Origin: Hydrotalea sp.
GTDB taxonomy: Bacteria; Bacteroidota; Bacteroidia; Chitinophagales; Chitinophagaceae
DNA length: 64,000 nucleotides
Reading direction: 5' to 3'
Assembly: GCA_027364735.1 (NCBI GenBank)
Contig: DAHXOT010000007.1
Coordinates: 1-64,000 of the forward strand
The translations under genes were made by a program, and so were the position numbers. The notes beneath the pieces were generated by a model. The model did no database searches. It saw nothing but the letters and a program-made list of their open reading frames with translations, and was not told the DNA's origin. Within the stretch, counting starts at the first letter, position 1. The number at the start of each line of letters is the position of its first letter. Of the stretch, positions 31,196 through 55,820 are shown piece after piece.

Positions 31196-31217
31196 AGCTA
31201 ACTAATTTAAGTTAGCT
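31196..31217 (+). promoter_or_regulatory. Palindrome upstream of fadN, possible operator
   Basis: Perfect 8-bp inverted repeat AGCTAACT / AGTTAGCT with a 6-nt AATTTA spacer, 26 nt upstream of the fadN ATG. Size and symmetry fit a dimeric repressor site such as a TetR- or FadR-type site. No such regulator gene is adjacent. Confidence 0.5.
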
Positions 31218-31243
31218 TTAATTAAAAAATAAGCTTGTCTTTT

Positions 31244-33619
31244 ATGAAACGTACAATTAAAAAAGTTGCTGTTTTAGGCAGCGGCGTTATGGGAAGCCGA
31301 ATTGCCTGCCACTTTGCAGGTATTGGTATTCAAGTATTATTGTTAGATATTGTTGGTAAAGATGTTCCCGCAGATGCAAAACCTGCACTAAAAAATAAAA
31401 TTGTAAACGACGCTTTAAATGCTGCACTAAAAAGCAATCCTTCACCGGTATTTACAAAAGATGTAAGTAAAAAAATAACTACCGGCAACTTCGATGATAA
31501 TATGAAAGATATTGAAAGCTGCGATTGGATTATTGAAGTAGTTGTTGAAAGATTAGATATTAAAAAAATAGTGTACGAAAAAGTTGAACAATTTCGTAAG
31601 CTCGGTACCCTCATTACTTCTAATACTTCGGGTATTCCTATTCACTTATTAAGTGAAGGAAGAAGCGAAGATTTTAAAAAACACTTCTGCGGCACACATT
31701 TTTTCAATCCGCCTCGCTATTTAAGATTATTAGAAATTATTCCTACTCCCGATACAGATCCTTCAATCGTAGATTTTTTAATGCATTACGGCGATTTGTA
31801 CTTGGGTAAAACTACTGTGTTATGTAAAGATACACCTGCTTTTATAGCCAATAGAATTGGCGTGTTTAGCATAATGAGCATTTTTCATATCATGGAAAAA
31901 TTGGGCTTAACTATTGATGAAGTTGATACTTTAACCGGCCCAATTATTGGTAGACCAAAATCGGCTACCTTCAGAACTGCCGATGTGGTTGGCATTGATA
32001 CTTTAGTAAAAGTGGCAACTGGTGTTGCCGATAATTGTGCCACCGACGAAGCAAAAAATATTTTTACCATTCCATCTTGGTTAGAAAAAGTTGTGGCTAA
32101 TAATTGGTTAGGTGATAAAACAGGACAAGGATTTTTCAAAAAAACAAAGTCTGCAGCCGGAAAAGAAATTCTTACACTGAATTTACAAACCATGGAATAT
32201 GGAGCAAGAGTAAAACCCAAATTTGCCTCCATTGAAACTGCTAAACCTATAGATGATTTAAAACAAAGAATTAAAATATTAGCTGCATCAACCGATAAAG
32301 CAGGAAAATTTTATACCTTATTCCATCATGCATTGTTTGCTTATATTTCTCACCGAATTCCCGAAATTTCGGATGAAATTTATCGTGTAGATGATGCCAT
32401 GAAAGCCGGATTTGGTTGGGAAATTGGTGCATTTGAAACATGGGATTTATTGGGCGTAACAACCACTGTTGAAGCCATGAAAGCATCGGGGCATCAACCT
32501 GCCGAATGGGTTATTGAAATGTTAGCCAGCGGAGCATCTTCTTTCTACAAAATAGAGCATGGCAAAAAACTATTTTACGATATTGCCACAAAAACATATA
32601 AACCATTACCCGGCGGAGATGCAATACTTATTTTAAACAACTACTCGGATAAATTGGTTTGGAAAAATAGTGCCTGCAAACTATACGATATTGGCGATGG
32701 TGTTGCAGGTTTTGAATGGAATACTAAAATGAATAGTATTGGTGGCGAAGTATTAGAAGGCTTAAATAAAGCAATAAATATTGCCGAAAATTCATTTAAA
32801 GGATTAGTAATTGCCAACGATGGTGCCAACTTTAGTGCAGGCGCTAATGTGGGAATGATATTTATGTATGCCATTGAACAAGAATATGACGAGTTGGATA
32901 TGGCTATCAGAATGTTTCAAAATAGTATGATGCGTGTTCGCTATTCATCAGTACCAATTGTTACAGCACCGCATGGATTAACATTGGGAGGTGGTTGCGA
33001 AATGAATTTACACGCCGATAAAATTTGTGCCGCTGCTGAAACTTATATTGGCTTAGTAGAATTAGGCGTAGGCTTAATTCCGGGCGGTGGTGGTACCAAA
33101 GAATTTGTATTGCGTGCCAGCGATGAATTACATATTGATGAACCAGAAACCAATACACTGAAAGAAAGATTCTTTGCAATTGCTACTGCTAAAGTGGCAA
33201 CTTCGGCATACGAAGCTTTTGATATGGGCATTTTAAGAAAAGGACATGATGAAGTAATCCTAAATATTGAAAGAAGAATTGCTGATGCTAAAAAAAGTGT
33301 CATTGAAATATATGATGCAGGATATACTATGCCACAACAACGTAAAGATATTAAAGTATTAGGCAGATTGGGATTGGGAGCCATGCTGGCAGGAATTAAT
33401 GGAATGACACGTGCCGGTTATGCAACCGAACATGATGCATTGGTAGCAAAAAAATTAGCTTATGTAATGTGCGGTGGCGATTTAAGCGAACCAACATTAG
33501 TTACCGAACAATATTTGTTAGATTTAGAAAGAGAAGCTTTTTTAAGCTTATGTGGCGAAAAGAAAACATTGGAAAGAATACAAAGTGTATTAAAAAACGG
33601 AAGACCTATTAGAAATTAA
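31244..33619 (+). CDS. fadN: FadN-type 3-hydroxyacyl-CoA dehydrogenase / enoyl-CoA hydratase
   Basis: Bifunctional beta-oxidation enzyme, 791 residues. The dehydrogenase comes first: NAD motif VAVLGSGVMGSRIACHFAG at about 8-26, NTSGIPIHLLSEG, and catalytic His region HFCGTHFFNPPRYL; its C-terminal domains extend to about 440. The enoyl-CoA hydratase domain follows at about 480-700 (FSAGANVGM, LGGGCEMNLHADKI, LVELGVGLIPGGGG). E. coli FadB and FadJ have the reverse order; this order and length match Bacillus FadN. The frame starts at a TTG at 31235, but ATG 31244 is preferred. The thiolase and acyl-CoA dehydrogenase partners are not next to it; a terminator follows. Confidence 0.93.
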   Translation: MKRTIKKVAVLGSGVMGSRIACHFAGIGIQVLLLDIVGKDVPADAKPALKNKIVNDALNAALKSNPSPVFTKDVSKKITTGNFDDNMKDIESCDWIIEVVVERLDIKKIVYEKVEQFRKLGTLITSNTSGIPIHLLSEGRSEDFKKHFCGTHFFNPPRYLRLLEIIPTPDTDPSIVDFLMHYGDLYLGKTTVLCKDTPAFIANRIGVFSIMSIFHIMEKLGLTIDEVDTLTGPIIGRPKSATFRTADVVGIDTLVKVATGVADNCATDEAKNIFTIPSWLEKVVANNWLGDKTGQGFFKKTKSAAGKEILTLNLQTMEYGARVKPKFASIETAKPIDDLKQRIKILAASTDKAGKFYTLFHHALFAYISHRIPEISDEIYRVDDAMKAGFGWEIGAFETWDLLGVTTTVEAMKASGHQPAEWVIEMLASGASSFYKIEHGKKLFYDIATKTYKPLPGGDAILILNNYSDKLVWKNSACKLYDIGDGVAGFEWNTKMNSIGGEVLEGLNKAINIAENSFKGLVIANDGANFSAGANVGMIFMYAIEQEYDELDMAIRMFQNSMMRVRYSSVPIVTAPHGLTLGGGCEMNLHADKICAAAETYIGLVELGVGLIPGGGGTKEFVLRASDELHIDEPETNTLKERFFAIATAKVATSAYEAFDMGILRKGHDEVILNIERRIADAKKSVIEIYDAGYTMPQQRKDIKVLGRLGLGAMLAGINGMTRAGYATEHDALVAKKLAYVMCGGDLSEPTLVTEQYLLDLEREAFLSLCGEKKTLERIQSVLKNGRPIRN

Positions 33620-52752: not shown

Positions 52753-52800
52753 GTTGTAAAACTAAACAAGAGTTAAGAAAGAGACGAAAAAAAATATTTT

Positions 52801-52815
52801 AGCGAAATTTTCGCT
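52801..52815. promoter_or_regulatory. Palindrome between the regulator and aceB, likely operator
   Basis: AGCGAAATTTTCGCT: perfect 7-bp arms AGCGAAA / TTTCGCT with one central base, near the middle of the 104-nt divergent region. Position and symmetry fit the binding site of the neighbouring XRE/ScfR regulator. Not tested. Confidence 0.5.
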
Positions 52816-52856
52816 TTTTAAATTATTTTCACTTTCTTTGAAAAAATTTAGCTGCC

Positions 52857-54488
52857 ATGATACCAACCACTACCACATTACAGCACAAAAGTGTAGCATA
52901 CATTACACCGAATGAGATGACAATTACCGGAGCCTTCCGCCCGGCCTATGCAGAAATTTTAACACCACAAGCATTAGAATTTATTCATTCACTTCATACA
53001 AGATTTGAAGCAAGAAGAAAATCATTATTACATTTTAGAAACCAAATCCAACTAAACATTGATAATGGCATTATGCCGGGTTTTCTTCCTACCACTGCTA
53101 TTATTAGAAACAGCGAATGGAAATGCCCAGAAGTACCTTTTGATTTGCAAGACCGCCGTGTAGAGATTACCGGACCGGTTGATAGAAAAATGATTATTAA
53201 TGCACTTAACTCGGGTGCTAAAATTTTTATGGCCGATTTTGAAGATAGCAATTCACCCGATTGGCATAATACAATACAAGGGCAAATTAATCTATACGAT
53301 GCTATTAGGCATACAATATCGTTTACCAATGAAAACGGAAAAGAATATTTTTTAAATACCGAAATTGCTACATTGATGGTAAGGCCCAGAGGTTGGCATT
53401 TGGTTGATAAACATATTTTAATTAATAGCGAGCCTATTAGTGCGGCATTACTCGATTTTGGTTTATTCTTCTTTCATAACGCAAAACAATTAATTAATAA
53501 TGGCAGTGGACCTTACTTTTATTTGCCAAAATTAGAAAACTATAGAGAAGCAAGGTTATGGGATGATATTTTTGTTTATGCTCAAAATTATATGGGCATA
53601 CCGCATGGCACAATTAAAGCTACTGTTTTAATAGAAACTATTTTAGCAACATTTCAATTAGACGAAATTATTTGGGAATTACGCGATCATTGCGCTGGCT
53701 TAAATTGCGGTAGATGGGATTACATTTTTTCTTTCATCAAAAAATTTAAAAACGTTCCTAACTATATTTTCCCCGAAAGAAGTCAGGTTACCATGACGGT
53801 TCCTTTTATGCGAGCCTATACACAACTTGTAATTAAAACTTGTCATAAAAGAGGCATTCACGCAATGGGAGGAATGGCAGCACAAATTCCAATTAAAAAT
53901 AATTTAGAAGAAAATGAAATTGCCTTAGAGAAAGTTAGAGCCGATAAATTAAGAGAAGTTACCGATGGACATGATGGCACATGGGTAGCACATCCCGCAT
54001 TAGTACCTATTGCAATGGATGTATTCAATCAATACATGACCACACCCAATCAAATTAATACAAAAACAAAGGAGGATTTTTTCTGTTCCGAAAAAGATTT
54101 ATTACAACTTCCGGAAGGCACAATTACCGAAGCCGGTTTTAGAATGAATATTAACGTAGGAATTTTATATTTAGAAAGCTGGCTAAGAGGAAATGGAGCA
54201 GCCGCTTTATATAATTTAATGGAAGATGCAGCTACAGCCGAAATTTCTAGAACACAAATTTGGCAATGGATTAAAACTAATGCCAAATGGGATTGTGGCA
54301 AAGTAATTACCGATACCTGCTACTTAAGAGTAAGAGCTGAAGAAGTAGCAAAAATTAAAAAATATGTTGGAGAAGAAATATTTAACAACGGAAAATTTGA
54401 TGAAGCAATTGCCCTTTTCGATAAGTTGGTTTTACAAGATGATTTCACAGAATTTTTAACCATTCCCGCTTATGAATTAATTGAATAA
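52857..54488 (+). CDS. aceB: Malate synthase A
   Basis: Condenses acetyl-CoA with glyoxylate to malate. The 543 residues match form A length. Motifs visible are FMADFEDSNSPDW, MVRPRGWHLVDKH, ATVLIETILATFQLDEI, LNCGRWDYIFSFIKK and TVPFMRAYTQLVIKTCHKRG. The C-terminal helical plug has MEDAATAEISRTQIWQWIK. It starts the aceB-aceA operon, divergent from its likely regulator. A near-consensus -7 box (TTTCTTTG) lies around 52833-52840. Confidence 0.98.
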   Translation: MIPTTTTLQHKSVAYITPNEMTITGAFRPAYAEILTPQALEFIHSLHTRFEARRKSLLHFRNQIQLNIDNGIMPGFLPTTAIIRNSEWKCPEVPFDLQDRRVEITGPVDRKMIINALNSGAKIFMADFEDSNSPDWHNTIQGQINLYDAIRHTISFTNENGKEYFLNTEIATLMVRPRGWHLVDKHILINSEPISAALLDFGLFFFHNAKQLINNGSGPYFYLPKLENYREARLWDDIFVYAQNYMGIPHGTIKATVLIETILATFQLDEIIWELRDHCAGLNCGRWDYIFSFIKKFKNVPNYIFPERSQVTMTVPFMRAYTQLVIKTCHKRGIHAMGGMAAQIPIKNNLEENEIALEKVRADKLREVTDGHDGTWVAHPALVPIAMDVFNQYMTTPNQINTKTKEDFFCSEKDLLQLPEGTITEAGFRMNINVGILYLESWLRGNGAAALYNLMEDAATAEISRTQIWQWIKTNAKWDCGKVITDTCYLRVRAEEVAKIKKYVGEEIFNNGKFDEAIALFDKLVLQDDFTEFLTIPAYELIE

Positions 54489-54545: not shown

Positions 54546-55820
54546 ATGAGTAACTTTTCAAAAGCAGAACAGCTAACCGCACATTGGAACAGTAATCCAA
54601 GGTGGGCTGGCATTATAAGGCCGTATACTGCAGAAAGTGTTTTAACGCTTCGCAGTAAAATAGAAATAGAATATACCCTGGCAAAAAATGGAGCAGACAA
54701 ATTATGGAAACGCTTAACAACACAATCCTACGTTGGAGCCTTGGGTGCATTAACAGGTAATCAGGCAATACAAGAAGTAGCAGCAGGATTAGAAGCTATT
54801 TATTTAAGTGGATGGCAAGTAGCAGCAGATGCGAATATAGCAGGACAAATGTACCCCGATCAATCTTTATACCCCGCTAACTCTGTTCCGCAAGTGGTGA
54901 AAAGAATTAATAATGCTTTATTACGTGCCGAACAAATTGATAGTGTAAATGGAGATAATACAAAAGATTGGATGCAACCTATTATTGCAGATGCCGAAGC
55001 CGGATTTGGCGGCAACTTAAATGCGTACGAGTTAATGAAAGAGATGATTGAAGCAGGAGCTGCTGCAGTTCATTTTGAAGATCAATTATCTTCTGCCAAA
55101 AAATGTGGCCACTTAGGTGGAAAAGTTTTGGTACCAACACAAGAAGCTATTAATAAATTAATTGCTGCCCGATTAGCTGCAGATGTTTGCAATGTTCCTA
55201 CATTAATTATTGCACGCACCGATGGAGAAGCTGCCAATTTAATTACAAGTGATATTGATGAAAGAGATAAAGTATTTATACAAGGTGAAAGAACTTCGGA
55301 AGGTTTTTACTTTGTTAAAAATGGTGTAGAACAATGTATAGCTCGTGGCATCTCGTATGCACCTTATGCAGATATGCTATGGATGGAAACTTCAAAACCC
55401 GACTTAGCAGTAGCAAAAGAATTTGCAGAAGCAATTCATTCAAAATATCCGGAAAAATTATTAGCATATAATTGCTCTCCTTCTTTTAATTGGGCAAAAT
55501 ATTTAACCAAAAAAGAAATGGAAATTTTTAGAGAAGAATTGGCCGCATTAGGATATAAATTTCAGTTTATTACTTTAGCAGGTTTTCATGCGCTCAATAC
55601 TTCTATGTTCGAATTAAGTAAATCGTATTTTGAAAAAGGTATGGCAGGATTTTCTGAATTGCAGCAAAGAGAATTTGCTTTACAAGAAAAAGGATTTAGT
55701 GCTATAAAACATCAAAGTTTTGTTGGAACAGGTTATTTTGATTATGTGCAAAATACTGTTCAGCAAGGTGCTTCTACCATAGCATTAAAAGAGAGTACAG
55801 AAGCTGCACAATTTCATTAG
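54546..55820 (+). CDS. aceA: Isocitrate lyase
   Basis: Cleaves isocitrate to succinate and glyoxylate. The 424 residues have the TIM-barrel core with the catalytic loop [18 protein letters not shown] (nucleophilic Cys187), ADAEAGFGG for metal binding, [11 protein letters not shown], and [13 protein letters not shown]. Of prokaryotic subfamily length, without the large eukaryotic insert. It follows aceB by 57 nt and ends before a strong terminator. Confidence 0.98.

Follow-up and report, generated by a model that had tools for sequence, protein, structure and literature searches.

A Conserved Palindrome as the Probable Operator of a Predicted CoA-Sensing ScfR-Like Regulator Divergent from the Glyoxylate Shunt Genes of Hydrotalea sp.

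What controls the glyoxylate shunt genes aceB and aceA in Hydrotalea sp., and does the palindrome lying in front of them take part in that control? In the 64-kb stretch of DNA analysed here (the window), a 104-bp gap (52753-52856) separates a large XRE regulator gene from aceB, and the palindrome AGCGAAA-T-TTTCGCT lies inside it. An earlier note on this DNA had described the palindrome and a regulator divergent from a complete glyoxylate shunt, and both were found as described (Table 1). The aceBA neighbours of the regulator are genes for growth on fat- or acetate-derived carbon.

Table 1: Features of the regulator-aceBA locus in the window.
Feature	Position	Strand	Details
ScfR-like regulator ORF, 495 aa	51265-52752	minus	XRE HTH, linker, IrrE/M78-like and GAF-like ligand domain
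aceB, malate synthase A	52857-54488	plus	TIGR01344, 787 bits (cut-off 594.5)
aceA, isocitrate lyase	54546-55820	plus	NF011645, 726 bits (cut-off 562)
Proposed operator, central palindrome AGCGAAATTTTCGCT	52801-52815		core GCGAA-N3-TTCGC at 52802-52814
Left outer half-site ACGAA, 4/5 to GCGAA	52784-52788		18 bp from inner half-site
Right outer half-site TTCAC, 4/5 to TTCGC	52828-52832		18 bp from inner half-site; doubtful
Candidate aceB -7 box TTTCTTTG	52833-52840	plus	one mismatch to TAnnTTTG

The exact palindrome was present as a single copy in the 2.77-Mb genome, against none for the reversed control, and with up to two mismatches allowed its pattern matched once in the window against 0.40 expected. 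Because the window holds 15 perfect 7-N-7 palindromes of whatever sequence, the palindrome by itself is unremarkable, and it is the conservation that is notable. Across the genome, the looser form GCGAAN{2,3}TTCGC gave three matches, equal to its control of three, and the two besides the operator lay within ORFs. The 15-bp form with up to two mismatches was found at 6 places against 10 in the control; its sole one-mismatch place lay within an ORF, so that all three looser matches checked fell inside ORFs. With a single exact copy, and with looser matches that do not exceed their controls, the Hydrotalea genome gave no support for a wide regulon of its own. The gap before the window's fadB ortholog (31235-33619) contained no operator-type site. 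Just upstream of the same gene, at 31196-31217, there is a perfect inverted repeat of another kind, AGCTAAC-N8-GTTAGCT, which may serve a different beta-oxidation regulator of the Hydrotalea genome as its operator.

To assess conservation, 80 named loci, the best 80 of at least 489 relatives, were scanned. A divergent aceB-like gene was present in 48 of them (the copy in L023 being just 30% identical to aceB). In 58 of the 80 loci (40/48 aceB-linked and 18/32 others), the 600 bp upstream of the regulator contained GCGAA-N2/3-TTCGC, and these upstream regions held 62 sites in 46,929 bases, compared with 2 in the remaining 891,437 bases of the loci. Six of the remaining eight aceB-linked loci carried GCGGA-N3-TCCGC, in which both arms have changed together from GCGAA/TTCGC, and two carried a site one base off (L013 and L017). 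By the criterion of the earlier note, absence of the palindrome beside the same gene pair in related genomes would have spoken against its reading; instead, all 48 aceB-linked loci possessed the operator or a variant. These counts are not independent, because a single genus can contribute many loci, Hymenobacter accounting for 15 of the 48 aceB-linked ones. Among the 32 loci without aceB, 14 showed no site, one of which (L071) has 4 bp upstream and another an unaligned frame. In a set of 59 genomes, the window's own included, 8 encoded a full-length ortholog; of the seven others, five had the exact core before the gene, one an imperfect core (L005), and one none (L006). The palindrome is very probably a conserved operator. 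It is barely credible that it instead forms a hairpin in a transcript, as part of a terminator or a leader, or arose by chance in AT-rich DNA, as the number of perfect 7-N-7 palindromes in the window (15) might suggest. These readings were rejected along with a riboswitch, since the folding z-score was -0.53, Rfam matches at the gathering score were absent, and 12- or 13-bp sites with conserved GC ends recur across families at a density far above that in the rest of the loci.

The presence of the motif was then compared with that of the regulator in an order-wide set of 396 genomes, 121 of which encoded the regulator at E up to 1e-20. The stricter form AGCGAAN{2,3}TTCGCT was detected in 187 genomes, namely 114 of the 121 with the regulator (it was unmatched in the other 7) and 73 of the 275 without it, corresponding to a Fisher p of about 1.6e-39 when genomes are treated as free of shared descent. 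Site totals were 531 versus 73 in the reversed control for regulator genomes, and 98 versus 82 for genomes without the regulator; the motif in the latter is thus close to background. Four or more sites were present in 49/121 regulator genomes versus 2/275 others, no regulator genome reached four control hits, and the highest count was 18 in G110, 17 of them AT-centred. Were the palindrome the operator of another, unlinked transcription factor regulating both genes, the occurrence of at least one match in 73 genomes without the regulator, and of four or more in two, would find a ready explanation. This is nevertheless very unlikely, given that sites clearly exceed the control where the regulator is present, stay near it where the regulator is absent, and that operator length tracks the regulator clade, as described below.

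The regulator matched Pfam HTH_3 and Peptidase_M78, both above cut-off, with the HTH at the N-terminus (about residues 11-72) followed by an IrrE/DUF955-like domain. The NCBIfam RamB equivalog NF038139 scored 40.1 bits versus a cut-off of 700, so the protein is not RamB in the strict sense. No DUF2083 C-terminal model was listed among Pfam matches at E up to 0.001, if the copy used includes that model, although this part of the protein does resemble PrpR in its predicted fold; on these results the protein was classed as ScfR-like, on a distant branch. We compared an AlphaFold model (63 rows, mean pLDDT 87) with solved structures. The best match to the predicted model was Mycobacterium tuberculosis PrpR (MtPrpR; 6cyj, Z 26.5, rmsd 4.6, 302 residues aligned over model positions 137-489, 18% identity), followed by IrrE/PprI and CapP with Z of 12.9-14.4, and Foldseek gave an E of 6.6e-14 against 6cz6. 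A profile of the post-HTH part ranked PrpR chains first, weakly (E 0.004), among 177,635 solved sequences; the solved-structure sequence search with the whole regulator or with alignment A1 listed HTH-domain matches alone. The earlier description of the protein as ScfR/RamB-like thus stood as far as the HTH and IrrE/M78-like domains, the predicted PrpR fold, and four conserved cysteines are concerned, and gave way on RamB itself. IrrE/M78 protease activity was rejected as a function, with HEXXH absent; the window reads GRELAF at this position, and the 12 aligned rows inspected also lacked the motif.

The iron-sulfur ligands of MtPrpR include Cys363 and C447-X2-C-X4-C455, as described in passages of PMC6765138. 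The corresponding putative [4Fe4S] cysteines, C369 and C458-X2-C461-X4-C466, were each kept in 114 or 115 of 116 rows, the exceptions being L009, which has none of the four, and one gapped row; in an 88-row count, the exceptions were L009 and L027. Family f8 regulator matches stopped between profile positions 450 and 474, no further than the C-X2-C-X4-C segment. Residues were mapped onto the MtPrpR pocket from a HMMER alignment with numbering worked out by hand. The CoA contacts F240 and R338 aligned to F231 (113/116 rows) and R335 (115/116), and a third pocket residue, R208, was also conserved, its alignment being unsure. At the position equivalent to H319, 67 rows had Q and 45 had H. Phe155 of MtPrpR touches the CoA thiol (PMC6765138, in part); its equivalent, residue 140, is T in the window, F in 60/116 rows, and L in 23, and the T may reflect a different acyl group. 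From the modelled PrpR fold, a partly kept CoA pocket, and a putative [4Fe4S] lock, we infer that the regulator is an ScfR-like predicted CoA-thioester sensor. L009, the one case read alongside the short family f8 matches, kept the operator while missing all four cysteines; it is a natural cluster-less variant that would bear on the role of the [4Fe4S] cluster.

The regulator tree was built without the HTH columns, leaving off L027 (frame unaligned), L003 (a near copy), nine near-duplicates, and paralog rows with fewer than 381 or more than 599 residues. The window fell in a 30-row clade (SH-aLRT 98), in which the sites found were all 13 bp (GCGAA-N3 or GCGGA-N3, some one base off); outside this clade, all were 12 bp. 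Operator length therefore tracks the regulator clade, with one change on the tree. Within the HTH, H42 was present in 14/18 rows with 13-bp sites and 0/67 with 12-bp sites, and F14 in 7/7 GCGGA rows versus 1/11 and 0/67; L039 has N42 despite a 13-bp site. As operator length changed only once on the tree, the link between residue and length proves nothing, and a recognition-helix code for length was rejected.

Both length classes were found together in Phaeodactylibacter luteus. Its aceB-linked regulator has GCGGAAATTCCGC, the sole match to AGCGGANNNTCCGCT in that genome, a second regulator has GCGAAATTTCGC at -36, and a third paralog showed no site upstream. The genome also contains eight AT-centred AGCGAA-N2-TTCGCT sites, mostly beside beta-oxidation genes. 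G281 is not independent of L021 and L077, being the same P. luteus genome with identical proteins and coordinates. A third paralog group (L204, L207, L210, L224, L225, and L231) has HNIEK or HSIEK as its recognition helix, and its genes showed neither an upstream operator nor an aceB within the stretch analysed. Paralog pairs with 12-bp and 13-bp operators amount to a natural experiment in the reading of half-site spacing by an XRE dimer.

Site surroundings were read in four Saprospirales-type genomes, namely P. luteus (Saprospirales), the Saprospiraceae bacteria OFTM40 and Tobar13m-G26 (L062 and L072), and G110, which shares its family code with the P. luteus genome. For each group of neighbouring genes, one member was scanned against families and the others were assigned by BLAST. 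Sites adjoined acyl-CoA dehydrogenase genes and FadB-like 3-hydroxyacyl-CoA dehydrogenases in all four genomes, ETF beta in three (202-351 bp away), and FadD-type ligases and an Fe-S protein in two each. Single-case neighbours were an enoyl-CoA hydratase, a fatty-acid hydroxylase, and a flavoenzyme that, on our reading, has 2,4-dienoyl-CoA reductase domains. In G110, a lipid or ETF gene lay at 8 of 16 site regions, a count that includes an SDR as well as a site that falls within the beginning of an acyl-CoA dehydrogenase ORF, and none lay at the other eight; in P. luteus, a TonB receptor lay downstream of one of the eight sites. The earlier note had suggested looking for the palindrome before other acetate or propionate genes. 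This failed in the Hydrotalea genome with its single site, but the 12-bp form does precede beta-oxidation genes in relatives.

Extra sites were also present in Cytophagales genomes, in Flectobacillus and Hymenobacter as well as Pseudarcicella and Spirosoma. In three genomes (L169, L171, and L198), they lay 40-577 bp upstream of ilvD, whose product, dihydroxy-acid dehydratase, is an Fe-S enzyme. Two Hymenobacter genomes (L196 and L197) had the operator between genes for PEP carboxykinase and a POT-family peptide transporter, and other extra sites lay before GAPDH and before a TonB receptor.

The flanks of the aceB operators were examined for outer half-sites, which were counted where, 17-18 bp from the palindrome, at least 4/5 letters agreed with TTCGC. 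At 12-bp operators, a right outer half-site was present at 15/15 Hymenobacter and 14/24 other sites and a left one at 7/15 and 16/24, respectively, against fewer than 0.5 in shuffled flanks in every case. In the 13-bp class, a left half-site was found at 8/15 sites and was conserved in the alignment of the window's nearest clade; a right one was found only at the window itself (1/15), which makes that half-site doubtful. The half-site array was almost perfect in L049 and L054, both without aceB. Between the operator and aceB, a perfect TAnnTTTG, the Bacteroidota -7 consensus, occurred in 34/49 loci; its distance from the operator centre was 26-32 bp in every case and exactly 32 bp in 22. By class, it was present in 15/15 Hymenobacter, 16 other 12-bp loci, and 3/14 13-bp loci (all at 26 bp). 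The box in the window is imperfect and lies about 28 bp from the operator, near the place of the perfect boxes of relatives. Toward aceB, the reversed box used as a control was hit 8 times, with five of the hits at 30-40 bp, and of 29 TAnnTTTG boxes toward the regulator 13 lay at 34-37 bp, the others being scattered. The evidence for a composite operator and for the -7 distance comes mainly from 12-bp relatives, and the window belongs to the 13-bp class. Neither feature held in general at the extra sites: the box lay 33 bp away, centre to centre, at four Cytophagales sites, two of which are aceB operators, and 41-42 bp away at three, and outer half-sites reached at most 4/46 versus a mean of 0.95 per offset.

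Conservation, the paired changes in both arms, co-occurrence, the predicted fold, the cysteines, and the -7 distance together argue that the palindrome is likely the operator through which a predicted CoA-sensing ScfR-like regulator would control aceBA and itself; both binding and ligand are what we infer from these features. One shared site would serve aceBA and the regulator's own gene, with one pair of HTH domains on the inner palindrome. A tetramer that also gripped the outer half-sites at 17-18 bp would occupy about 50 bp in all, including the stretch directly before the aceB -7 box, and should thereby block the promoter. By analogy with RamB of Paracoccus denitrificans, the tetramer would give way to a dimer once a CoA ester is formed from acetate or fatty acids; this dimer would remain at the central palindrome, some 35-40 bp before the start, and activate aceBA. 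The Paracoccus protein (ScfR class 2) is divergent from ms-icl, changes from tetramers to dimers with CoA esters, and may repress on succinate, according to parts of PMC10370305. A switch of this type is most likely here because the gene order is the same, the fold and the cluster ligands match, and a multi-half-site operator lies beside the promoter; the step to activation is less sure than the operator of a CoA-sensing regulator.

Alternatively, the regulator could be a plain repressor that hides the aceB promoter until a CoA ester lifts it off, with no activation. The position of the operator and right outer half-site just upstream of the -7 box would suit this, as would the repression of icl1 on glucose by M. 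tuberculosis RamB (PMC3420887, in part). Against it, the operator-to-box distance is nearly fixed (34/34 in 26-32 bp), which is tighter than blocking needs, and Paracoccus RamB, with the same divergent order, needs both operator boxes to activate (PMC10370305). We regard plain repression as possible but somewhat doubtful; it differs from the switch from blocking to activation in sign only, so that the odds of the two overlap.

Among known systems, RamB of Corynebacterium glutamicum (class 1) has an HTH-first domain order and a theme of acetate metabolism, both shared by the present regulator, which differs from it in falling far short of the NF038139 cut-off. Proteobacterial FadR is a beta-oxidation regulator answering to acyl-CoA; regulators of this type would be functionally alike if the present reading is true, with one regulator, beta-oxidation genes, and acyl-CoA, but belong to an unrelated protein family. 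Like Paracoccus RamB, the regulator is of ScfR type with [4Fe4S] cysteines, is divergent from malate synthase and then isocitrate lyase, and has a proposed operator of more than one box upstream. In contrast, the RamB motif, as described in parts of PMC10370305, consists of two near-identical boxes with an 18-bp spacer instead of GCGAA-N2/3-TTCGC with outer half-sites, and the phylum and targets are different. MtPrpR (MccR; 6CYJ, 6CYY, 6CZ6, and 6D2S) is the best fold match, shares the C-X2-C-X4-C plus one Cys and the F240/R338 contacts, and is likewise encoded divergently from its target operon (PMC6765138 and PMC3420887, in part). At 18% identity, however, the two differ in operator, TTTGCAAA-N-TTTGCgAA for PrpR and GCGAA/TTCGC here, and in targets, methylcitrate genes for PrpR and glyoxylate or beta-oxidation genes here, going by the same parts of these papers.

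The top-ranked results of an open-literature search gave no description of a Bacteroidota regulator of the glyoxylate shunt or beta-oxidation. For the 12- and 14-letter forms of the operator, the papers listed concerned colibactin crosslinks and Salmonella typing. As far as we have seen, the kind of regulator is known, and its operator, its regulon, and the phylum are new. New are the outer half-sites at 17-18 bp and the -7 box at 26-32 bp at many aceB operators, mainly of 12-bp relatives; the operator length of 12 or 13 bp that follows the regulator clade; and, in Saprospirales, the site before beta-oxidation genes.

More broadly, these results may point to a Bacteroidota-wide acyl-CoA regulon under ScfR-like proteins, a reading that we consider evenly balanced. 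An ancestral regulator of the 12-bp palindrome would have governed beta-oxidation, aceBA, and other central-carbon genes, and the sister clade that includes the window would have shifted to 13 bp, partly as GCGGA, keeping the glyoxylate shunt only. Saprospirales such as P. luteus would hold both as two insulated circuits, with a tetramer-to-dimer switch at aceB from blocking to activating. With a protein, a consensus for its operator, a predicted regulon, and naturally occurring variants of both operator and regulator now available, direct tests of binding and of knockouts can be planned straight away.
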